A stretch of 30,702 nucleotides of DNA, taken from the IMG/VR virus record IMGVR_UViG_3300035670_000936, positions 1 through 30,702 of that record. One strand, written 5' to 3'. Source of the DNA: a virus. The translations under genes and the position numbers were made by a program. Below are positions 1,618 through 10,026 of this stretch, piece after piece. The notes under the pieces were generated by a model that worked only from the letters and a program-made list of their open reading frames with translations, did no database searches and had not been told where the DNA came from. Numbering within the stretch: position 1 is the first letter of the stretch; each line of letters opens with the position of its first letter.

Positions 1618-1796
1618 GCAAATCGAAGATTTTGCTAATTGGTCAACTTATAGCTTTACTACTTAACTTAATAATTAAACTTATAAGTTGACTTACTTAA
1701 CTACTTAAGTTAACTAACTTATAAAAAAGTAAAAAAACTTTACATAGTCAAATACCTGTGTAAAGATTTTACAAAAAACTTTCTATGAGCGACTAC

Positions 1797-1842
1797 TTTT
1801 TCATTTACTGGGATGATTTACCTTTGAGCAAACCATCAGAAA
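1797..1842 (+). promoter_or_regulatory. Early promoter with variant leader motif
   Basis: The -7 box TACCTTTG (1819-1826) matches the Bacteroidota consensus TAnnTTTG exactly. A T-run at 1797-1800 sits about 19 bases upstream in the -33 position. The leader then reads AAACCATCAGAAA directly before the ATG at 1843, a one-base-shorter variant of the ACCAATC leader seen at other early genes. This would start transcription of the whole early region. Confidence 0.6.
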
Positions 1843-2094
1843 ATGAGAAAGACCCCAAAGTATTACCTCGGGAAGTACAAACAGATCGAGGCTCTGGACG
1901 TGGTGCTTGACTTTCAGGAATCAAACTACAATCTGGGAACGGCACTAACCTACATCATGCGAGCTGGCAAGAAGCCAAACAACCCGATGAGTCAGGACAT
2001 CATGAAGGCAATCGTGCATCTTCAGGCAGAGTACGAGCATCAAGTCCGGAAAGAGGCAAACAAACCGGAGGTAGTGTATGTACCCACACCCTAA
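1843..2094 (+). CDS. DUF3310-family protein
   Basis: This 83-residue protein matches the small phage DUF3310 family: a start rich in Tyr (PKYYLGKYKQIEALDV), then YNLGTALTYIMRAGKK at residues 29-44, then a helix KAIVHLQAEYEH. The NLGnAxxYxxRAGKK core is the family signature. These proteins are common in phage early operons and are sometimes annotated as nucleotide kinase-like, but the biochemical role is not firmly established. It is the first gene behind the early promoter at 1819-1826 and overlaps the RusA-like gene by 17 bases. Confidence 0.75.
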   Translation: MRKTPKYYLGKYKQIEALDVVLDFQESNYNLGTALTYIMRAGKKPNNPMSQDIMKAIVHLQAEYEHQVRKEANKPEVVYVPTP

Positions 2095-2449: not shown

Positions 2450-2490
2450 ATCTGGTTTAGTATTTTTGAAGAGTTAAAAAACCAATCATC
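2438..2490 (+). promoter_or_regulatory. Promoter and ACCAATC leader for the small coiled-coil and SSB-like genes
   Basis: TTG (2438-2440), a spacer of 20 bases, then TATTTTTG (2461-2468), an exact TAnnTTTG box. The leader AAAAAACCAATCATC follows and runs directly into the ATG at 2491. The -33 element lies inside the end of the RusA-like gene. Confidence 0.6.
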
Positions 2491-2637
2491 ATGACACTAT
2501 CGCTATCACAGGATACTTATTCCCAAACAATCATTGCTCAAGGTGCCCAGATCAAAGCTCTTCAGGAGCGAGTTCAGGAGCTGGAGGCTAAACTCGAAGT
2601 GCTGCAACGTAGCGTAGATACTTCTCTCTTTATTTAA
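2491..2637 (+). CDS. 48-residue coiled-coil protein
   Basis: This short frame directly follows a promoter and an ACCAATC leader, so its start is well supported. The protein begins MTLSLSQDTYSQT. Residues 16-41 form a heptad-like amphipathic helix (AQIKALQERVQELEAKLEVL) resembling a leucine zipper, so it probably dimerises. There is no recognisable DNA-binding part. It may be a small regulator or a partner of the SSB-like protein encoded 19 bases downstream. Function unknown. Confidence 0.65.
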   Translation: MTLSLSQDTYSQTIIAQGAQIKALQERVQELEAKLEVLQRSVDTSLFI

Positions 2638-2656
2638 TTTCTAAAACCAATCAACA

Positions 2657-3088
2657 ATGGCTAAAATTATTTCAATCACCCCGAAGGGTCAATGGCAGGA
2701 GTTCTACAAGTTAGAGATCCGTTTTGACAATGGAGACTTTGGTACTGCATTTGCTAAATCACCTACCCCGTCTTACGGAGTAGGAGATGAGGTAGAGTAC
2801 TCAAAGAATGAGAAGGGCACAATCAAGATCCAACGACCTAACGGATTTGGTGGAGGTTCTGGAGGCAGCTTTGCCACCGCTTCGAAATCGGCAGGCGATG
2901 ACCGCTCCGCCTCCATCATCCGTCAGGTTGCTCTGAAAGCAGCAGTCGAATATGCATGCGCTGCTAAACACGATGTGCCTACCATTCTGGAGAATGCAGA
3001 GGCGTTTAACCGGTGGATGCTCGGCCAATCAGAGGCTCCGGTTTCGCATGTAGACCATTTCGCAAACCGCAACGATAGTCCGTTCTGA
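2657..3088 (+). CDS. Probable single-stranded DNA-binding protein
   Basis: This 143-residue protein has a compact beta-rich N-terminal half (about 1-60) with VGDEVEYSKNEKGTIKIQRP, consistent with a small OB-like fold. A Gly/Ser-rich linker (GFGGGSGGSF) and a helical segment RSASIIRQVALKAAVEYACA follow. The tail ends NRNDSPF. An acidic or polar tail ending in Pro-Phe is the hallmark by which SSB proteins recruit partners. It sits between a resolvase and a replicative helicase. It could instead be a strand-annealing partner for the RecE-like exonuclease. An ACCAATC leader precedes the ATG and a strong terminator follows. Confidence 0.55.
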   Translation: MAKIISITPKGQWQEFYKLEIRFDNGDFGTAFAKSPTPSYGVGDEVEYSKNEKGTIKIQRPNGFGGGSGGSFATASKSAGDDRSASIIRQVALKAAVEYACAAKHDVPTILENAEAFNRWMLGQSEAPVSHVDHFANRNDSPF

Positions 3089-3178
3089 TTGGTTTCTTCG
3101 GACGTTGCGTAAAGGCCCCACTTCGGTGGGGCTTTTTTATTCCCGAAGGCCTGTATATATTCGTGCTACCAATCAGAA
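3083..3178 (+). repeat. 11-bp inverted repeat bracketing the terminator
   Basis: TTCTGATTGGT (3083-3093, spanning the SSB-like stop codon) is the exact reverse complement of ACCAATCAGAA (3168-3178), the leader of the helicase gene. The pair encloses the intrinsic terminator and the promoter. In a read-through RNA the two arms could pair and bury the leader. Confidence 0.5.
3111..3138 (+). terminator. Strong intrinsic terminator after the SSB-like gene
   Basis: GCCCCAC, a TTCG tetraloop and GTGGGGC form a perfect 7-bp stem. Flanking AAA and TTT pairs extend it, and it runs into six T. Confidence 0.9.
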
Positions 3179-3182
3179 ATAA
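3133..3182 (+). promoter_or_regulatory. Promoter and leader for the helicase operon
   Basis: TATATTCG (3156-3163) resembles TAnnTTTG with one change. The T-run of the terminator (3133-3138) occupies the -33 position about 20 bases upstream. The ACCAATC leader follows at 3168-3174, nine bases before the ATG at 3183. The same TATATTCG octamer occurs at 1551-1558. Confidence 0.45.
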
Positions 3183-4112
3183 ATGAAACACCCAGACTTA
3201 TTACCAAGAGAGGAATCTCTACCCTACCTGCAAAGAGCATTAAAGGGAAAATACTTTGACACCGGGAAACTTGGGATCGAAGAGATCGACCAATACCTTC
3301 GGTTCAAGGACGGAGAGTTTGTAGTCGTAACAGGGCATGCCAATGTGGGGAAGACCCACACGCTGGTTTACTTGATGTTGCTACAAAGTATAAACTTCGG
3401 AAAGAAATGGCTGATCTACTCATCAGAGAACGAGGTCGCATCCCTGAAGCGAAAGCTGATTGAGTTTATGATCTGCAAGCCAATCCAAGCGATCACGGAA
3501 CTCCAGATGCATACCAAATTAGATTGGATCGATGAGCATTTTCAGTTCATTGACGGCAACAGGCTATTTAATGCCTTCGCTCTTCTGGAGACCATGGATA
3601 GCATCAAACAGGAATGGGACTACACGGGAGCATTGATTGATCCGTATAACTCACTCACCACGGATCAGAAGAAACTCGGAAAGACAGGGATGCACGAATA
3701 CCACTACGAGGTGGCAAGTGCCATCCGGGTCTTTGCCCACAAGAATCAGGTTACCACAATAGTCAACACCCACCCTGTTACTGAGGCGATGCGGAAGGTG
3801 CATCATGGGAACCATCCGTACGCAGGGATGCCCATGCCCCCGATGACCTCGGATATTGAAGGAGGCGGAAAGTGGGGAAACAGGGCTGATGCCGTAGTAA
3901 TTATACACCGGTACGCCCAACATCCGGAGGATTGGGTTTACACACATATTCATGTGCGTAAGGTCAAAGAGATGGAAACAGGGGGCCGTGTTACTCCTCT
4001 GGAGCAGCCCATCACCATGCGGTCGATTGTGGGGAATGTTGGTTTCTCGATCAACAATCGTAATTTGCTACAGCAATCAGAACCAATTACCTATACCAAT
4101 GAGCCATTTTGA
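3183..4112 (+). CDS. DnaB-type replicative helicase (RecA-like ATPase domain only)
   Basis: This 309-residue ATPase likely unwinds DNA at the phage fork. Walker A is GHANVGKT at 51-58. A DnaB-like SSEN follows at 80-83, Walker B is LIDPYNSL at 151-158, and NTHP at 195-198 is the sensor-like motif typical of DnaB and Twinkle helicases. It lacks the N-terminal DnaB domain and any primase or zinc-finger domain, so priming must come from elsewhere. The start has its own promoter and leader. The end overlaps the next gene by 14 bases. A RadA/KaiC-like recombination ATPase is a less likely alternative. Confidence 0.8.
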   Translation: MKHPDLLPREESLPYLQRALKGKYFDTGKLGIEEIDQYLRFKDGEFVVVTGHANVGKTHTLVYLMLLQSINFGKKWLIYSSENEVASLKRKLIEFMICKPIQAITELQMHTKLDWIDEHFQFIDGNRLFNAFALLETMDSIKQEWDYTGALIDPYNSLTTDQKKLGKTGMHEYHYEVASAIRVFAHKNQVTTIVNTHPVTEAMRKVHHGNHPYAGMPMPPMTSDIEGGGKWGNRADAVVIIHRYAQHPEDWVYTHIHVRKVKEMETGGRVTPLEQPITMRSIVGNVGFSINNRNLLQQSEPITYTNEPF

Positions 4113-4410
4113 TGAGTCGCATGACATGTATATCAGGGAGAAGCAATTGCTCCTTGCTGGTACGGCTATCTGGATCGCCAAGATGGCATCGGAACAGAGC
4201 AAGAATCGAGAGATTCAGGATGACCTGCTCGCCCACATGTACAACTGCCACTATGCCGATCTGCTCTTGCAGCAGTATATCGACTATCGAGAGTATACGA
4301 ACATGGTGGTGAACAAAGTCCGGTTAAAGAATGCCAAGCTCCGGGTGGAGAACGAAGAGATGATTCAGGAGGTCAAACGCCTGCAAGGAATAATCGAGGA
4401 CAACCTGTGA
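4099..4410 (+). CDS. Coiled-coil protein of unknown function
   Basis: 103 residues from MSHFDESHDMYI. The sequence is almost entirely helical and highly charged, and the last third (RLKNAKLRVENEEMIQEVKR) is a strong coiled coil. No catalytic motif is visible. A longer frame from 3952 would lie inside the helicase gene with atypical composition, so the ATG at 4099 is preferred. The position next to the helicase suggests a helicase loader or other replication accessory, but that is only inference. Confidence 0.6.
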   Translation: MSHFDESHDMYIREKQLLLAGTAIWIAKMASEQSKNREIQDDLLAHMYNCHYADLLLQQYIDYREYTNMVVNKVRLKNAKLRVENEEMIQEVKRLQGIIEDNL

Positions 4411-4637
4411 AACAGATATTCTCGCCATTCCAGAAGTACGAGTGCTTTCAAGTGGATGGAGTTGACTACATCTGCTTGGACTATCAGATCATCCAAGACT
4501 CGGAAGACAAACTTGTGGAGTGGTGTTCGTGGTTTAAGTTCAAGAGACTATCAGATCACAAGCACTACCTACTACCAATTACCAAAATTTTAGAAACCAA
4601 AAATGAGGGCAGAGCAAAACTCTGCAAATGCAAATGA
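4407..4637 (+). CDS. Small protein of unknown function
   Basis: 76 residues, starting with GTG at a 4-base GTGA overlap with the coiled-coil gene and ending in an ATGA overlap with the next gene, which strongly suggests translational coupling. It contains YECFQVDGVDYICLDYQI, an alternating hydrophobic pattern consistent with a small beta sheet, and ends Cys-Lys-rich (KLCKCK). No family recognised. Confidence 0.55.
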   Translation: MKQIFSPFQKYECFQVDGVDYICLDYQIIQDSEDKLVEWCSWFKFKRLSDHKHYLLPITKILETKNEGRAKLCKCK

Positions 4638-4867
4638 AAACAGCAATGCAAGAAATGTTGGAATGGGTTAGAACAACCCTGCCAATGGATTTAGAAACAC
4701 CAATGCTCATTGAGAAGAAAATTGAATCTTTACTTCAGAAAGAGAAGGAGCAGATGATTGAATTTGCAAGGAATATAATTATAGATGCCGTTTGTAGCGT
4801 TGAAGGTTATGTTACGACTGAAAAAGATATTGAAGAATACTACAACGAAACCTACAACAAGCAATGA
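4634..4867 (+). CDS. Small phage protein, paralogue of the gene at 9314
   Basis: 77 residues. The start at 4634 is chosen over an ATG six bases upstream for two reasons: it forms an ATGA overlap with the previous stop, and its N-terminus MKTAMQEM aligns with the paralogue's MKTPMQEL. The shared core is LLQKEKEQMIE. The C-terminus reads EEYYNETYNK, a pattern I associate from memory with a small family common in Bacteroidota phages. It is helical and acidic. Function unknown. Confidence 0.6.
   Translation: MKTAMQEMLEWVRTTLPMDLETPMLIEKKIESLLQKEKEQMIEFARNIIIDAVCSVEGYVTTEKDIEEYYNETYNKQ
4731..4761 (+). repeat. Direct repeat copy 1 (with 9411-9441)
   Basis: These 31 bases match 9411-9441 at 30 positions; the core is GAGAAGGAGCAGATGATTGA. 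Both copies code for the KEKEQMI motif of two paralogous small genes. That level of nucleotide identity points to a fairly recent duplication or gene conversion. Confidence 0.6.
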
Positions 4868-5277
4868 GAGCATTTGAAGTTCAAAGAATCAAACAAGCCA
4901 AGAATCTGTACTACGCAACTCTGGGCATGAAGGAGAAAGATGATAGGAGCAGAAACCAAGCTCTTGCTCGTTCTGCTTTCCTCAATGCCTTCAGGCCTTA
5001 TGCCACTCTGGAGGAGATGGGTAAGATCCTGTGCCGAGACCATAGCACGATGACCTATGCCCTGAAAGAGCATAACTATCGGCTGAACCATGATGACTAT
5101 CGGCACATGTACAATATCGCCTGCATGGTCAGGGACAAGACCGACCTTGACCCTATGGAGGTTTATGACATCCACGGATTGCAGGATGAGATAAAAAGAC
5201 TCAACGAGATTATTACCGAGTTAATTCAGTACAAGGAAATATACTTGAAACTGAAAACAACATTCGATGAGTTTTAA
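4864..5277 (+). CDS. DnaA domain IV-like DNA-binding protein
   Basis: 137 residues starting at an ATGA overlap. Residues 35-70 read like the DNA-binding domain IV of DnaA: a helix, then ATLEEMGKILCRDHSTMTYA, where RDHST at 58-62 is the DnaA signature loop and helix that contacts the DnaA box. There is no AAA+ ATPase domain. The C-terminal third (DEIKRLNEIITELIQYKEIY) is a coiled coil, likely for dimerisation. It may mark the phage origin, compete with host DnaA, or act as a regulator. It follows the helicase by three small genes. The domain match is seen by eye; the role is inferred. Confidence 0.7.
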   Translation: MRAFEVQRIKQAKNLYYATLGMKEKDDRSRNQALARSAFLNAFRPYATLEEMGKILCRDHSTMTYALKEHNYRLNHDDYRHMYNIACMVRDKTDLDPMEVYDIHGLQDEIKRLNEIITELIQYKEIYLKLKTTFDEF

Positions 5278-5416
5278 CGTAACTTTATGGCCTATCTATG
5301 GTCTGCTGCTCGGAGTTAACTATGCCACCACCACTATTCTCGAAGAGGACTGCACGGAGCATGAGCTGCAAATCGCTCTCTTTATTATTATTCTGGAGAT
5401 CAGTTGGGAATCTTAA
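5267..5416 (+). CDS. 49-residue membrane-associated small protein
   Basis: This frame begins in the last codons of the DnaA-like gene and ends inside the sigma-like gene, filling what would otherwise be a 126-base gap. The protein reads MSFNVTLWPIYGLLLGVNYA, then an acidic stretch EEDCTEHEL, then a hydrophobic helix IALFIIILEI. I recall a small phage family with an LWP-YG-LLGVNY start followed by an acidic and a hydrophobic part, from memory. Function unknown; membrane association is inferred from hydrophobicity. Confidence 0.6.
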   Translation: MSFNVTLWPIYGLLLGVNYATTTILEEDCTEHELQIALFIIILEISWES

Positions 5417-5940
5417 CAATCCTCGCAAATAGGCATACGGACTGGATCCGGATGGCAAAAAGTTTTGGCGCAAGCCAAGAACTTGCGGAGGATTTAGTGC
5501 AGGAGATGTACGTGAGGTTGCACAAATATGTGGATGACCCACAGAAGATCATGTACTCGGAGACAGAGGTAAACACGTTCTTTGTCTACGTCAGTTTGAG
5601 GAATATGTACAACTCACTAATGAAGGCTAAGAGCCGCTTTGAGTTTGTGGACGTATCTACTCTGGAGGACCAATTGATCTTCGAAGAGGTCAACGAAGAG
5701 GCCGAGGTGAACATGATGCAGTTATACGAAGAGATCTGGGAGACCACGGATGACTGGCATTGGTATGACAAAAAGATCTTTGCCCTGTATCACAATACGG
5801 ACATGAGCATCCGGACGTTGGCCGGAGAAACTAAAATATCAGCACGTTCAATTTTCAACACTTTAAAAAATGCAAGAGAACGAATCAAAGATGAGTGCAG
5901 AGATGCCTACGAAGCGTGGAAGGAAGCCAAAGAAGAGTGA
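5404..5940 (+). CDS. Phage RNA polymerase sigma factor, ECF-like
   Basis: 178 residues with two sigma-70-like parts. Region 2 is at about 11-75 with AEDLVQEMYVRL (28-39), the classic core-binding helix. Region 4 is at about 132-165, with MSIRTLAGETKISARSIF as the helix-turn-helix for the -35 element. An acidic linker (about 85-115) separates them. The TTG start at 5404 is preferred over the ATG at 5452 because region 2 needs HTDWIRMAKSFGA in front of it. It probably directs host RNA polymerase to late phage promoters. Such factors are divergent, so specificity cannot be read from sequence. Confidence 0.75.
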   Translation: MGILTILANRHTDWIRMAKSFGASQELAEDLVQEMYVRLHKYVDDPQKIMYSETEVNTFFVYVSLRNMYNSLMKAKSRFEFVDVSTLEDQLIFEEVNEEAEVNMMQLYEEIWETTDDWHWYDKKIFALYHNTDMSIRTLAGETKISARSIFNTLKNARERIKDECRDAYEAWKEAKEE

Positions 5941-6283
5941 GGGGCTGGGAGACACGATCGAGAAAATTACTACCGCCACAGGAATCAAAGCTGCGGTTGA
6001 CTGGTTCAGCGAAGCAACAGGCGTGGATTGCGGATGCGATGCCCGAAAGGAGAAGCTAAACCAGATCTGGAGATACCGGAAGCCGGAGTGCTTAACACAA
6101 CCGGAGTACGAGTTTATCGGAAAGATGAAGGGACGGAATGTAGTTACTGCTTTTGAACAGGTGGAACTGAATAAGATCTACAATCGGGTATTCCGGGACA
6201 ATGTTCAGGGAACGAACTGCGGGTCTTGTTTGAGAGGCCGTCTTCAGGAATTGGAAACCCTTTACAACGCTTATGAAGTATAG
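5891..6283 (+). CDS. Cysteine-containing phage protein of unknown function
   Basis: 130 residues from MSAEMPTKRGRKPKK; ATGs at 5870 and 5903 are alternatives. The lysine-rich start is followed by GLGDTIEKITTATGIKAAVD, then DCGCDARKEKLNQIW, and a second cysteine pair NCGSCLRGRLQEL. I recall the GLGD-IEK-T-ATGIK and CGCD-RK-KLN segments from other Bacteroidota phage proteins. The four cysteines could form a metal site. It overlaps the sigma-like gene and may be coupled to it. Function not known. Confidence 0.6.
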   Translation: MSAEMPTKRGRKPKKSEGLGDTIEKITTATGIKAAVDWFSEATGVDCGCDARKEKLNQIWRYRKPECLTQPEYEFIGKMKGRNVVTAFEQVELNKIYNRVFRDNVQGTNCGSCLRGRLQELETLYNAYEV

Positions 6284-6734
6284 TGCAAGGAAGTTCGTGC
6301 AGGAGTCCTATGATCGCAATGATGAATGGGGCAAGAGCATCGTGCTTCGTTGGCTATCAACATACAAGGATAAATTCAAGGTAATCCAGAAGGAAGGAGA
6401 GGATTACGGGGTTGACATACAGGTTACCCATGGGAAGAACATCATCAGCTTCGAGGTAGAGGTAAAACACGGATACCCGTTTACAAGTGCCGATACGTTT
6501 CCCTTTGGCTCGGTTAGTTTTTTAGGACGCAAGCGCAAGTTCGGGAAGTTCTGGTACGTGGTGGTTTGTGCGGAAACGGAAGCCATTTGCCTCTGCCATA
6601 GCGATGAGATCTATCAGGAGAAGTACAGGCAGATCAAAACGATAGCAACATCCGAACGTAATGGGCTGGATGAGTTCTACCGAGTACCAAAAGAAAAATG
6701 CAGTTTTTATGCCGATACCAAAACCAAGAAGTGA
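6273..6734 (+). CDS. PD-(D/E)XK nuclease-like protein
   Basis: 153 residues. The segment DYGVDIQV, followed after a short strand by SFEVEVKHG, supplies Asp48, Glu63 and Lys65 in the D...ExK arrangement of the restriction-endonuclease fold. The end (KEKCSFYADT) gives no further clue. It overlaps the preceding gene by 11 bases. It could degrade host DNA, process recombination intermediates, or act as a decoy without activity. No specific family is recognised. Confidence 0.55.
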   Translation: MKYSARKFVQESYDRNDEWGKSIVLRWLSTYKDKFKVIQKEGEDYGVDIQVTHGKNIISFEVEVKHGYPFTSADTFPFGSVSFLGRKRKFGKFWYVVVCAETEAICLCHSDEIYQEKYRQIKTIATSERNGLDEFYRVPKEKCSFYADTKTKK

Positions 6735-6843
6735 AGAGAAGCAATCGGACTTTGTGTTCCGGTGTGCTGCAGAGATAGGGGATGAATACCCCAGAGATCA
6801 AGCGATAGCGATCTGCTATCAGGCGTGGCGAGATAAGGAATAG
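6709..6843 (+). CDS. 44-residue phage protein (PxPxxxE...DFxxRC...W type)
   Basis: Starts at ATG 6709, inside the end of the nuclease-like gene, because MPIPKPRSEEKQSDFVFRC matches the beginning of a short domain seen in many phage proteins: a Pro-rich start, then a Cys, then EYP, then AIAICYQAW. The same module often sits at the end of larger phage head proteins. Here it is free-standing. Its role is not known. A terminator hairpin follows 26 bases later. Confidence 0.6.
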   Translation: MPIPKPRSEEKQSDFVFRCAAEIGDEYPRDQAIAICYQAWRDKE

Positions 6844-6869
6844 GTCAAAGTATCTCAATTTTTAGGAAA

Positions 6870-6918
6870 CCTGACTGACGTACAGGCATTTAGCTTGTGG
6901 CGTCCGGTCGGGCTTTTT
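6870..6918 (+). terminator. Long-stem intrinsic terminator
   Basis: CCTGACTGACG (6870-6880) pairs with CGTCCGGTCGGG (6901-6912) with one bulged C. The inner ACAGGC (6882-6887) pairs with GCTTGT (6893-6898) around ATTTA. CTTTTT follows. The promoter for the next gene overlaps its 3' end. Confidence 0.75.
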
Positions 6919-6952
6919 AGTTTTGGGTATGTTTAAAAAGAAACCAATCAAA
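6895..6952 (+). promoter_or_regulatory. Promoter and ACCAATC leader nested in the terminator
   Basis: TTG (6895-6897) lies in the upper stem of the terminator. After 20 bases comes TAGTTTTG (6918-6925), an exact TAnnTTTG box. The leader AAACCAATCAAA runs into the ATG at 6953. The upstream TTG at 6923 is part of the promoter box and should not be used as a start codon. Confidence 0.65.
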
Positions 6953-7201
6953 ATGAAAGCATACTCAATCACCCAGATCACCTACCAAATTGTGGTAGAA
7001 CAGAATGCTAATATCAGCACGGAGACCATGACCTTCGAACGTCTATTTTTGAATAACATCGAAGAGGGTTACGACTTCGAATTTGTCTACGCTCTGGCTG
7101 ACATTGCAGAAGATGTTATGAAGTTAAGTGCCGGAGAGAGCATGTACTTCAAGCCCAACCGAGACGAGCCGTCAAAAGGAATCATCGCACGAATCAAATA
7201 A
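6953..7201 (+). CDS. Small protein of unknown function
   Basis: 82 residues from MKAYSITQITYQIVVEQN. The ATG at 6953 is chosen because a promoter and the ACCAATC leader occupy the bases just before it. The protein looks alpha/beta, with a helix EFVYALADIAEDVMKL and a C-terminal strand KGIIARIK. It is the first of five small genes in a row and has no recognised family. Confidence 0.6.
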   Translation: MKAYSITQITYQIVVEQNANISTETMTFERLFLNNIEEGYDFEFVYALADIAEDVMKLSAGESMYFKPNRDEPSKGIIARIK

Positions 7202-7220
7202 TTTTTAAAAACCAATCACC

Positions 7221-7553
7221 ATGTTCAACAAGTACAAATGGATCGAGGAACAAGAGCAAATGCTCCGTGAGTACATCCTCGAATCAATCAAGAACGACAA
7301 TTCAGTAGATGCCGGAGATCTTGCCGAGCAACTGAATAATGACATCGAGAATGATGTGATCTACTACAATGATTGCTGGGAGATCTGCAAAGGGATTGCT
7401 CCAAACTCCGAATGGGATAAGATGGAACTCGGACCGATCACCAGCATTCGTGAACTTGCTTTTGCTACCCTGTATGAGTTCGCTTACGAAAACATCAATC
7501 TGGACAAACTTCTTGAAGAAACCTACAAAGAGATCGAAGATGCAAAGTTTTAA
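7221..7553 (+). CDS. Acidic helical protein of unknown function
   Basis: 110 residues, strongly acidic and helical (for example DLAEQLNNDIENDVIYYNDC). An ACCAATC leader directly precedes the ATG at 7221, so the start is well supported. It overlaps the next short membrane gene by 14 bases. The acidic surface could mimic DNA, a common theme in phage anti-host proteins, but nothing specific supports that here. Confidence 0.6.
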   Translation: MFNKYKWIEEQEQMLREYILESIKNDNSVDAGDLAEQLNNDIENDVIYYNDCWEICKGIAPNSEWDKMELGPITSIRELAFATLYEFAYENINLDKLLEETYKEIEDAKF

Positions 7554-7659
7554 GGTACTCCTTGCAAAGACTGCTGCTTCAATAGCAGTCCTTGCTTTCT
7601 TTTTTCTCGTTTCTTTTATCGCCACTTTTCTCGGCAAACTAATCGACTCCCTGTTATGA
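7540..7659 (+). CDS. 39-residue single-pass membrane protein
   Basis: Begins inside the end of the previous gene and ends in an ATGA overlap with the next. The protein is a short basic start (MQSFKVLLAKTA), one long hydrophobic helix (ASIAVLAFFFLVSFIATFL) and a short tail. A longer frame from 7369 in the same phase lies inside the acidic gene and is not expected to be real. Possible roles include superinfection control or membrane attachment of early proteins; none can be shown. Confidence 0.55.
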   Translation: MQSFKVLLAKTAASIAVLAFFFLVSFIATFLGKLIDSLL

Positions 7660-7949
7660 TCTTCACCAACGATGACTTGATGTACTACCTTGAGGAAACC
7701 AACTCGTTGCCAAAGGAGTACTTCAAACTTGAAACCGATACAGAAGCTCATGCCTACCTTGCCAATTGGCTTGGCTACGAAAGCATTGATGACTACGAGC
7801 GTTTTGAATTAGACGTTGAGTTGCGTACTGACCGAGGAACTTGGGAGCGTTATGCTACTACCTCTGTCCAGAACACCCCGCCTAAATTGGCAAATGACAT
7901 TTACAATAACTTTATTAACTACTGCGTAGATCACGCTAACTGGATGTAA
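7656..7949 (+). CDS. Small acidic protein of unknown function
   Basis: 97 residues starting at an ATGA overlap. Rich in Tyr, Asp and Glu, with the segments DLMYYLEETNSLP and NDIYNNFINYCVDHANWM. Predominantly helical. One base separates it from the next gene, so the two are probably co-translated. No family recognised. Confidence 0.55.
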   Translation: MIFTNDDLMYYLEETNSLPKEYFKLETDTEAHAYLANWLGYESIDDYERFELDVELRTDRGTWERYATTSVQNTPPKLANDIYNNFINYCVDHANWM

Positions 7950-7950
7950 C

Positions 7951-8178
7951 ATGGAAAACACAACAAACGTATCTGGAGAACTTATTGACACATTAAGCTG
8001 GGCTCCAGACAAGGACAATCACTCATTCATGATGGTATTCCGGTCATGGTTGAGCAATAATGAAGGGACTACTGACCTGTTCTTGGATGTGCCGTACCAT
8101 CAGGACTTTTACGAGATATTTAGGGAATACTGCGATAATTATGAAGAACACATGCTCGAGAAATTTAAAAAGAAATGA
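7951..8178 (+). CDS. Small acidic protein of unknown function
   Basis: 75 residues with LSWAPDKDNHSFMMVFRSW and a helical acidic end (EIFREYCDNYEEHMLEKFKKK). It is the last gene of its unit: an intrinsic terminator begins eight bases after the stop. No family recognised. Confidence 0.55.
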   Translation: MENTTNVSGELIDTLSWAPDKDNHSFMMVFRSWLSNNEGTTDLFLDVPYHQDFYEIFREYCDNYEEHMLEKFKKK

Positions 8179-8185
8179 GCTAAAT

Positions 8186-8213
8186 GGCTGACTTGCAAGG
8201 GTCGGCCTTTTTT
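8186..8213 (+). terminator. Intrinsic terminator
   Basis: GGCTGAC (8186-8192) pairs with GTCGGCC (8201-8207), with one T-G pair, around an 8-base loop, followed by six T. An ATG at 8184 lies in this hairpin and is not a start codon. Confidence 0.85.
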
Positions 8214-8240
8214 ATTATCTTTAATGAAACCAATCAGAAA
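8193..8240 (+). promoter_or_regulatory. Promoter and ACCAATC leader after the terminator
   Basis: TTG (8193-8195) lies in the terminator loop. After 20 bases comes TATCTTTA (8216-8223), differing from TAnnTTTG only at the last base. The leader ACCAATCAGAAA (8229-8240) runs into the ATG at 8241. The arrangement repeats that at 6895-6952. Confidence 0.55.
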
Positions 8241-8426
8241 ATGAAACCAAAAACCCCTTTTACCGTATTCTTTGAGCTGCATCCGGAATTTCCAGATGCC
8301 ACCAAAGAGGCATTTCTACGCATCGAGCGTAATGCTATTGAGACTGCTTTCTATTTAGGGAAACTTCAGAGCGACTCCGGTAAGTCAGAACAACAATACT
8401 TCGAAGGATTTTATGAAAATAATTGA
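8241..8426 (+). CDS. Small protein of unknown function preceding the exonuclease
   Basis: 61 residues from MKPKTPFTVFFELHPEFP. The start follows the ACCAATC leader; the in-frame ATG at 8184 is inside the terminator. Mostly helical (ATKEAFLRIERNAIETAFYLG) with an acidic, aromatic end (QQYFEGFYENN). It overlaps the exonuclease gene by 14 bases, so it might be a partner of that enzyme. No family recognised. Confidence 0.6.
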   Translation: MKPKTPFTVFFELHPEFPDATKEAFLRIERNAIETAFYLGKLQSDSGKSEQQYFEGFYENN

Positions 8427-9183
8427 ACTACTTGACGGAACGACTTGGGATCTGGACACCCTGAAGACCAAGATGCATGATGATGAGTTTTACTATGGGA
8501 ACTTGTCAAAGAATGCTTTAAGCTCTACTGCTTGTAAATTATTACTTACCTCACCGAAGACCTACCATTACGTTACCAAGTATGGCAGTCAGGATTCAGA
8601 TGCTTTTGCGGTAGGTCGGTTGACTCACCTCATGGCGTTGGAACCTCATCGGGTAGAAGAGTACGAGGTGATTGAAGTCCAGAGCAAAAATGCCAAAGCA
8701 TGGCAGGAAGCAAAAGGCAAGAGGAATATCTGCACCCGGAAGGAGTATGATGAAGCACAGAGAGTGGCTGATGCCCTTTTGAGGAACGAGCATGTTCTGG
8801 ATCTTATTCAGGGATGCGACTTTGAGCAACCTGCTATCGGTATGATCGGAGGGTTGCCATTCCGGGCAAAGGCAGACATCATTGCTGATGGCTTTTTGGC
8901 GGATCTGAAAACCACTACGGATCTTCGGGCATTCCCATATTCGGCAAAGAAATATGGATACGATGTGCAGGCGTTCATCTACACCCGATTATTCGGTGTG
9001 CCGATTGATCGTTTTTACTTTATCGCCATTGACAAGGCGAGTTTAGATGTGGGGATCTATTCGGTCAGTCCGGAGTTCATTCAGGAGGGAGAGCGCAAGA
9101 CAATGGAGGCAATTGAAACCTACAAGCAGTTCTTCATCTTGGGTGAGGACTTGGACTCGTACACGATCTTCGGGGAGTTGTAA
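8413..9183 (+). CDS. RecE-like PD-(D/E)XK exonuclease (DUF3799 type)
   Basis: This 256-residue enzyme likely resects double-stranded DNA ends for phage recombination, as the C-terminal domain of RecE does. Visible motifs: AFAVGRLTHLMALEP with His72 near the start of the nuclease core, LPFRAKADIIADGFLADLKT with Asp155, Asp164 and Lys166 (the D...DxK active site), and YGYDVQAFIYTRLF, matching the conserved Tyr/Gln helix. A partner annealing protein is not obvious; the SSB-like protein at 2657 is one candidate. A 130-base gap follows. Confidence 0.8.
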   Translation: MKIIELLDGTTWDLDTLKTKMHDDEFYYGNLSKNALSSTACKLLLTSPKTYHYVTKYGSQDSDAFAVGRLTHLMALEPHRVEEYEVIEVQSKNAKAWQEAKGKRNICTRKEYDEAQRVADALLRNEHVLDLIQGCDFEQPAIGMIGGLPFRAKADIIADGFLADLKTTTDLRAFPYSAKKYGYDVQAFIYTRLFGVPIDRFYFIAIDKASLDVGIYSVSPEFIQEGERKTMEAIETYKQFFILGEDLDSYTIFGEL

Positions 9184-9313
9184 CGCCAACAACGGAAGTG
9201 AAAACCCGCCAAAAGCGGAAATGAAATAGAGTTTTGGCAAAATATAAACATTCAAAAAAATGCCAATAAATTAGAATAGTGGCACTTTTTGGAATCATAA
9301 AAACCAACGAGAA
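9184..9313 (+). promoter_or_regulatory. Gap with repeated GCCAA/TTGGC half-sites and a weak hairpin
   Basis: Half-sites related to GCCAA or TTGGC occur at about 9185, 9208, 9234-9239, 9261-9266 and 9280. CCGC-CAAAA-GCGG forms a short hairpin near 9207-9218. TGCCA (9261-9265) and TGGCA (9280-9284), followed by CTTTTT, make a weak terminator-like stem. A leader ACCAACGAGAAA precedes the ATG at 9314. No clear TAnnTTTG box is visible. Operator function is a guess. Confidence 0.35.
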
Positions 9314-9523
9314 ATGAAAACACCAATGCAAGAGTTGATTGATAAACTCAACAATGTAAAGCCAACAGAGTTCTGTTCTATTGAAACAATCAAAAGATGG
9401 GCAGAGTCACTACTTGAGAAAGAGAAGGAGCAGATGATTGATTGGTATGCTACTGGGCAGGCAGATACAGTAAATATGTATGAGCAACACCTCAACAAAA
9501 ACTCTAACACCAAAGAGGAATGA
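9314..9523 (+). CDS. Small phage protein, paralogue of the gene at 4634
   Basis: 69 residues beginning MKTPMQELIDKL, with LLEKEKEQMIDWY in the middle. The N-terminus and this core match the protein at 4634 closely, and the DNA of the core is nearly identical. The C-terminal halves differ, lacking here the EEYYNETYNK ending. The leader ACCAACGAGAAA directly precedes the ATG. Function unknown. Confidence 0.6.
   Translation: MKTPMQELIDKLNNVKPTEFCSIETIKRWAESLLEKEKEQMIDWYATGQADTVNMYEQHLNKNSNTKEE
9411..9441 (+). repeat. Direct repeat copy 2 (with 4731-4761)
   Basis: Second copy of the 31-base repeat, with one mismatch to the first (C at 4736, G at 9416). The two genes also share most of their first 24 bases. 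Confidence 0.6.
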
Positions 9524-9771
9524 AAGCAATCTTAATAGACGAACTATTAAAAGATGATTCAGTTCAAGAATCAGTATGTGTAGTGGTTGACGGTAATAAA
9601 TTGGAGGGATGGATGATTGCTAAACCTCTCAATTACGATAAGGAATACACTACACTTAAGGAAAGATTTGCAATGGCAAAGAAAGTATTGTTTGGAAAAG
9701 CAATAGCTGTACAGTTCTTTTCTGACTTAACAGAGCAAGAAAAAATTAAATACGTAAAAACTAAACTTTAA
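9520..9771 (+). CDS. Small protein of unknown function
   Basis: 83 residues starting at an ATGA overlap. N-terminal strand-helix (MKAILIDELLKDD), then SVCVVVDGNKLEGWMIAKP, then helices. The composition suggests a small alpha/beta fold. No family recognised. Its codon use is more A-rich than the neighbouring nuclease gene. Confidence 0.55.
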   Translation: MKAILIDELLKDDSVQESVCVVVDGNKLEGWMIAKPLNYDKEYTTLKERFAMAKKVLFGKAIAVQFFSDLTEQEKIKYVKTKL

Positions 9772-9783
9772 CACCAACGAGAA

Positions 9784-10014
9784 ATGAAAGCAAGACTTGA
9801 ATACAACCTACCCGAAGAACGACCCGAGTTTGAGCTGGCGGTAAACGGAGCAAAGATGCAATTAGTACTCTGGGAGATGGACCAATGGCTAAGAGTACAA
9901 TACAAGTATATGCCAGACAACGAATACTCTAAAGACAAATATGAGACCTACGAGAAATGCAGAGACAAACTTCGTGATCTTATGCTTGAGAACGGGGTCG
10001 ACATAAATTCTTAA
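9784..10014 (+). CDS. Conserved small phage protein
   Basis: 76 residues beginning MKARLEYNLPEERPEFELA. I recall this start (MKA-L-F/YNLPE-..-EF-LA), followed by W-MDQWLR and YEKCRDKLR, from many phage proteins annotated only as hypothetical. It is helical and charged. The leader ACCAACGAGAAA immediately precedes the ATG, identical to that at 9302-9313. Function unknown. Confidence 0.65.
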   Translation: MKARLEYNLPEERPEFELAVNGAKMQLVLWEMDQWLRVQYKYMPDNEYSKDKYETYEKCRDKLRDLMLENGVDINS

Positions 10015-10026
10015 AACCAAGCAAAG

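Follow-up and report, generated by a model that had tools for sequence, protein, structure and literature searches.

In the 30.7-kb viral contig analyzed here (IMG/VR record IMGVR_UViG_3300035670_000936, 46.8% GC; hereafter the window), replication genes lie on the left and structural genes on the right, and the ATG of six early genes, named after the positions of their start codons (2491, 2657, 3183, 6953, 7221, and 8241), is preceded at 1–9 nt by AAACCAATC. A conserved hairpin carries the complement of this leader in its loop, and it is very likely that a trans-acting small RNA derived from the 3′ end of the 2491–2657 operon mRNA targets the leaders. As evidence, we observed that leader and loop are complementary, that the complementary sites lie at gene starts and nearly always on the coding strand, that they are conserved, and that loop and leaders have changed in concert in sister clades. 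The putative small RNA would comprise the hairpin, with a loop of about 16–22 nt, followed by an intrinsic terminator. Its loop would pair with approximately 7–14 bases immediately preceding the AUG in several early and replication genes, namely the operon's own head gene, gene 2657, the helicase gene, the exonuclease region, and small genes. The pairing would block 30S binding and repress the early genes, giving negative feedback as transcripts of the 2491–2657 operon accumulate.

The leader AAACCAATCA precedes the ATG of 2491, 2657, 6953, 7221, and 8241, and ctACCAATCAGAAataaATG precedes that of 3183. The AACCATTCA-type arrangement, AACCAATCA with an ATG within 6 nt, was found five times on the + strand, before the former five genes, versus 0.07 expected from shuffled sequences; neither this arrangement on the opposite strand of the window nor a reversed control pattern gave any occurrence. 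ACCAATC itself was present in 11 copies versus 4.5 expected, and six of the eight + strand copies were leaders. These counts bear out an earlier note on this DNA, which had read an ACCAATC-type leader before the six starts. Late genes lacked the motif, as that note had also stated, and the loose variant that it had pointed out before the capsid gene was not conserved in 16 relatives.

Compared with the 16-nt hairpin loop TTCTGATTGGTTTCTT, the leaders of 2491, 2657, 3183, 6953, 7221, and 8241 were perfect complements over 10, 10, 11, 13, 10, and 14 nt, respectively, and each complementary stretch stopped 1–4 nt short of its ATG. Elsewhere on the + strand of the 30.7 kb, a single site, located within a gene, matched the loop over at least 10 nt. 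We also performed a blind search for k-mers common to at least two leaders whose reverse complement falls in a hairpin loop, without supplying the motif. The top result was the same hairpin in the window and the corresponding hairpin in two loci of clade C, a sister clade described below. Of the earlier suggestions, that of a regulator site within early-gene 5′ leaders was right.

The 5′ arm of the hairpin lies within the last codons of gene 2657, whose stop codon falls inside the loop, and the loop seed TGATTGGTTT begins at this stop codon. The folding z-score of the hairpin and terminator was −3.1 to −6.1 in the window and five relatives. In the first set of relatives, 80 IMG/VR loci found via the helicase, the hairpin with its seed was present in 75 of the 75 loci in which both genes were readable, and its 43 distinct versions all folded to the same two-hairpin shape. 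Clade A, to which the window belongs, comprised 199 loci in all, some being overlapping pieces of one contig. Paired stem changes within the clade converted GTCCG/CGGAC to GCCCG/CGGGC and CGCAACG/CGTTGCG to CGTAACG/CGTTACG. RNAalifold reported six predicted pairs in the hairpin and terminator that had changed on both sides, partly due to the alignment of sub-clades with different stems. No Rfam 15 family reached the gathering threshold over the hairpin and terminator region, where only sub-threshold matches were obtained. Features expected of a small RNA derived from a 3′ untranslated region (3′-UTR) were found, namely a location at the 3′ end of an mRNA, an intrinsic terminator, and a conserved seed that is complementary to several start regions and covaries with them.

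Among the 80 relatives, 341 of the 466 coding-strand copies of ACCAATC stood before an ATG, versus 7 of the 211 copies on the other strand. At the starts homologous to 2491, 2657, and 7221, ACCAATC was found throughout (Table 1), and at the start of gene 3183 it was exact in 68 of the 80 relatives and replaced by ACCAATT in the remaining 12. It also stood directly before the exonuclease gene 8413, which gene 8241 overlaps in the window, in 29 of 42 relatives. Across about 200 related loci, the leader was almost unchanged at the genes that carry it in the window. Fourteen longer clade-A records, including the window, carried 4–7 copies per genome before ATG on the leader strand. At 2491, 2657, 3183, and 7221, the sole departures from the ACCAATC core were ACCAATT, in which pairing is kept as G-U. 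The core was fixed in all 60 distinct leaders of gene 2657, with a variable distance to the ATG. At gene 2491 of many relatives (e.g., L064 and L031), a GTGTCA...TGACAC-type inverted repeat flanks the leader motif and takes in part of the start codon; it is absent from the window.

Fetching more distant relatives yielded clades B (22 loci) and C (40 loci) and an outgroup, D. Many loci were fragments, some of them overlapping, and the distinct hairpin regions numbered 76, 6, and 19 in clades A, B, and C, respectively. The loops of the sister clades (UGUGUGUUU and UUUUAGGUGUU) differ from that of clade A, and the leaders of the homologous genes differ to match (AAACACACA and AACACCUAAAA). After the same stop codon, clade B has the hairpin GCAGTCC-TTTTTAGTGTGTGTGTTTTTTA-GGACTGC and clade C the hairpin CCAGTC-CGTTTTAGGTGTTTCATAAT-GACTGG, the stem sequences around the loop also being different from those of clade A. 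Clade B carries AACACAC leaders at the head gene, the helicase gene, and other genes, and none of its 22 loci had ACCAATC leaders on the coding strand; in clade C, the leaders AACACCTAAAA are an 11-nt complement of TTTTAGGTGTT. The mean longest complementarity to the own loop was 10.3 nt for the clade-A head gene (5.7 and 5.8 nt with the B and C loops, respectively), 9.4 nt for clade-A gene 2657 (6.0 and 6.3 nt with the other loops), 10.8 nt for the clade-A helicase (4.7 and 7.0 nt), 11.2 nt for the clade-C head gene (4.3 and 6.0 nt), and 8.2 nt for the clade-B helicase (4.8 and 6.6 nt). Leaders matching the loop of another clade numbered 0 in clade B and few in clade C; in clade A, 21 distinct AACACAC leaders were present. 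The latter include AACACACTAAAAAATG, which recurs in one sub-clade (L083, L131, and related records) that has no partner loop for it. In clade D, the blind search yielded no consistent loop/leader pair. An exact 14-mer scan of viral contigs for the clade-C loop was not used, as most of the matches listed were in contigs not otherwise linked to the group.

In the helicase tree, clades A, B, and C were each monophyletic (98/90, 99/99, and 99/98, respectively) with D as the outgroup, which indicates that the loop and the leaders switched together at least twice. Because complementarity is kept while both stretches change, at several targets at once, base pairing best explains the data, and RNA–RNA pairing is strongly supported by this covariation. 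The earlier note had named the absence of the motif from the same genes of relatives as grounds for rejecting it. In clade A, this check came out in its favor; in clades B and C, the motif is absent, but a sequence matching the changed hairpin takes its place. We infer the release of a separate or stable RNA, its action in trans in the cell, the repression, and its timing from these patterns.

Several points weigh against this interpretation. Support from clade B comes from a small number of distinct sequences; the seed there is an AC/GT repeat of low complexity, and the head gene matches over just 7 nt. The clade-C helicase match overlaps conserved codons (MKHP) and was therefore taken as weak evidence and given little weight. 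Stem covariation inside clade A is modest. The leaders are A-rich, as is usual in Bacteroidota, and some of their conservation could serve initiation itself. Finally, the sign of the regulation, repression, is one that we only infer.

Repression is suggested by the location of the pairing region inside the ribosome initiation footprint and by the finding that, in Flavobacterium johnsoniae, which initiates without Shine-Dalgarno sequences, structure near the start codon reduces initiation (PMC6847099). It is unlikely, given the same pairing, that the hairpin RNA instead activates or stabilizes, by opening or protecting the early leaders or by marking them for preferential translation. In favor of this reading, the direction of the effect cannot be read from the sequence, and some start codons were predicted to be partly paired, with unpaired probabilities of 0.28 at 7221 and 0.09 at 8241. 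However, the duplex would cover the stretch just upstream of the AUG taken by the 30S subunit, the effect of structure around the start codon in F. johnsoniae also counts against activation, and most leader sites were predicted to be mainly open (unpaired probability 0.67–0.86 at 2657, 3183, 6953, and 7221, 0.32 at 2491, and 0.47 at 8241), which leaves no shared inhibitory structure for the RNA to melt.

A DNA-binding phage regulator could also read AAACCAATCA as double-stranded DNA, in which case the hairpin copy would be one more operator in inverted orientation and the clade differences would reflect changed protein specificity. In its favor, a double-stranded site is the same on both strands, and several leaders lie 1–15 nt past a −7-type promoter box. 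Nevertheless, the inverted copy always occupies a conserved hairpin loop that follows the same gene, the leaders keep one orientation (862 copies on the coding strand versus 4 on the opposite strand in the 199 clade-A loci), gene 2657 has the motif with no TAnnTTTG box before any of its 60 distinct leaders, and the core variation, ACCAATT, is G-U compatible. These four observations favor pairing at the RNA level and make an operator highly improbable.

We assign a similarly slight probability to pairing in cis only, in which the 3′ hairpin of the 2491–2657 mRNA would contact its own leaders for message circularization or attenuation. Two of the targets do share the operon with the hairpin, but the leaders of the helicase gene 3183 and of 6953, 7221, and 8241 lie beyond the terminator, which argues for action in trans; moreover, 6953 has its own TAnnTTTG box and 3183 has a near-match. 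Least probable of all is a lineage-specific translation-initiation signal with an incidental hairpin match, which would account for the constant position just upstream of the AUG and for the A-rich leaders typical of Bacteroidota (PMC6847099) but is contradicted by the covariation of loop and leaders across three clades and runs counter to the 10–14 nt of loop complementarity at six leaders and to its absence from the majority of the other genes in the genome. The earlier proposals of a translation enhancer or a transcript-start element did not hold either, since the motif also occurs in a 19-nt intra-operon gap without a promoter, has wholly different letters in the sister phages, and is the complement of a conserved hairpin loop that the note had not seen. 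A promoter or transcript-start element was rejected for the missing box before gene 2657, and a generic leader was rejected as clades B, C, and D lack the clade-A pattern.

If a trans-acting small RNA is at work, it is possible, although doubtful, that the clades, taken as related phages of freshwater Bacteroidota, rely on RNA codes that are blind to one another. A hairpin RNA would then repress the leaders of its own clade only, limiting the same phage but not sister phages during co-infection, and such RNA-based heteroimmunity would drive repeated seed switching at all targets at once.

With respect to promoters, a loosely matched TAnnTTTG-type box was found before most 2491 leaders, typically at 9–15 nt, and before nearly all helicase leaders at 1–4 nt, the latter suggesting that the leader site is close to the 5′ end of the helicase mRNA. 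The earlier note had placed the motif downstream of TAnnTTTG boxes where these were visible; this holds for 2491 and 6953, is approximate for 3183 (TATATTCG), and fails for 2657. No TAnnTTTG box was found inside gene 2657 of the window, and the small RNA would therefore probably need processing from the mRNA. In clade C, the box lies about 4 nt before the helicase start (e.g., TACGTTTG, L239 near 10001), which suggests that this mRNA is leaderless, with loop complementarity residing in the start codon itself (ATGAAACACC). The TAnnTTTG boxes, the missing Shine-Dalgarno sequences, and the terminase, whose best annotated matches were mainly Flavobacterium phages at 41% identity, point to a host in Bacteroidota; two scans of genome contigs for the host gave no relative.

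Table 1. Positions of the putative small RNA, its candidate target leaders, and associated genes in the window
Feature	Position	Strand	Remarks
TAnnTTTG −7-type box (TATTTTTG)	2461..2468	+	Likely promoter of the 2491–2657–hairpin transcript
Target leader 1, AAACCAATCA	2479..2488	+	Before gene 2491; ACCAATC in 73/73 relatives
Gene 2491		+	Operon head gene; small coiled-coil protein
Target leader 2, AAACCAATCA	2644..2653	+	In 19-nt gap before gene 2657, without promoter box; ACCAATC in 75/75 relatives
Gene 2657	2657..3088	+	Putative single-strand-binding-like protein; hairpin RNA at 3′ end; itself a candidate target
Hairpin of putative small RNA	3068..3109	+	CGCAAC + GTCCG stem; 16-nt loop at 3083–3098
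Loop seed	3086..3095	+	Exact reverse complement of leader AAACCAATCA; invariant in clade A
Intrinsic terminator, AAAGGCCCCAC-TTCG-GTGGGGCTTTTTT	3111..3138	+	Ends 2491–2657 transcript; conserved with stem changes
Target leader 3, ACCAATCAGAA (11 nt)	3168..3178	+	Before helicase gene 3183; ACCAATC or ACCAATT in 80/80 relatives
DnaB-like helicase gene	3183..4112	+	Candidate target; PHROG 18375, E 2e-41
Target leader 4, AAGAAACCAATCA (13 nt)	6938..6950	+	Before gene 6953
Target leader 5, AAACCAATCA	7209..7218	+	Before gene 7221; ACCAATC in 15/15 relatives
Target leader 6, GAAACCAATCAGAA (14 nt)	8226..8239	+	Before gene 8241
Exonuclease VIII-like gene (DUF3799)	8413..9183	+	Candidate target in many relatives

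The product of gene 2657 was predicted to have five strands and two helices and ends in ...DSPF. Its place before the helicase gene, the five predicted strands, and the DSPF tail suggest that it may be a single-strand-binding-like protein; family, PDB sequence, and fold searches gave no match for this identity (best Foldseek E value, 0.12). Upstream of the helicase gene in L247, L251, and L268, the hairpin of clade C is separated from the terminator by a tRNA-like insert of about 120 nt (ending in ...GGTTCGATTCCTACCCCGACTAC). ARAGORN made no call for it in L251, and no tRNAs were found in the window or in L251.

Four sites that the earlier note had counted as members fell outside the group. 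At 1843, the apparent motif AACCATCAG has no loop match of at least 8 nt and lies inside a conserved small open reading frame (MSDYFFIYWDDLPL...; window 1785–1910), which overlaps the DUF3310 gene at its start, accounts for the apparent motif, and holds a TACCTTTG box. The sites before 9314, 9784, and 10027 belong to a second recurrent leader, (TTTAA)CACCAACGAGAA-ATG, at 9301–9313, 9771–9783, and, in a looser copy, 10015–10026. This leader has its own distribution: it precedes many unrelated small open reading frames in this gene-cassette region in the clade-A relatives, where an ATG follows 60 of the 64 ACCAACGAG copies, and no hairpin complementary to CACCAACGAGAA was found. The leader may act as a linker allowing the exchange of small genes.

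If the proposed mechanism is true, these phages encode an RNA regulon acting on their own early genes, apparently in a phylum that initiates without Shine-Dalgarno sequences. The three clades with their internally matched loop/leader pairs represent a natural compensatory-mutation experiment, and seed swaps can test the mechanism directly. A short repeated phage leader can betray a hidden regulatory RNA, and the blind leader/loop search is applicable to other phages.

In phage T4, the translational repressor proteins RegA and gp32 are made early and shut down early and replication genes at start sites. The early shutdown at start sites would be shared, whereas recognition would occur by RNA base pairing here and is carried out by proteins there. 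The leaders resemble the A-rich initiation regions of Bacteroidota in being A-rich and lacking Shine-Dalgarno sequences, but those regions show a nucleotide preference (A at −3, −6, and about −12) with no fixed word or partner RNA (PMC6847099), unlike the fixed core and partner loop found here. OppZ and CarZ of Vibrio cholerae are autoregulatory 3′-UTR-derived small RNAs (PMC7398697), with which the putative RNA shares the origin at an operon 3′ end, the Rho-independent terminator, the pairing at a translation start within that operon, and the feedback. OppZ differs in being bacterial, Hfq-bound, RNase E-processed, and shown experimentally, while the hairpin RNA, known here from sequence alone, would be phage-encoded, carry its seed in the loop, and target several separate phage transcripts. 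In open-access papers, we found no report of a 3′-UTR small RNA regulating the early gene set of its own phage with clade-specific seed switching, which is weak evidence of novelty.

The nearest kind of mechanism is that of antisense RNAs from phages, including c4, sar, and OOP (PMC12197685). Like sar of P22, OOP and PreS of lambda, and VpdS of VP882, the putative RNA would be a phage RNA pairing with phage or host RNAs. According to the same review, sar and OOP each act on one phage gene, PreS acts on a host gene, and VpdS binds Hfq and affects phage and host mRNA levels; none of them is described there as controlling a regulon made up of start sites in the early genes of its own phage. The c4 RNA of P1 and P7 is likewise an antisense RNA made by phages, and its loops complement the sequence surrounding a ribosome binding site. 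Unlike c4, which controls one antirepressor mRNA in immunity, the RNA proposed here would act on six early and replication start sites. The targets recognized were the helicase gene and the exonuclease region; we noticed neither an antirepressor nor an immunity gene, although no systematic search for them was made. The link of c4 to heteroimmunity between the related phages P1 and P7 (PMC12197685) provides a precedent for an antisense RNA in heteroimmunity.

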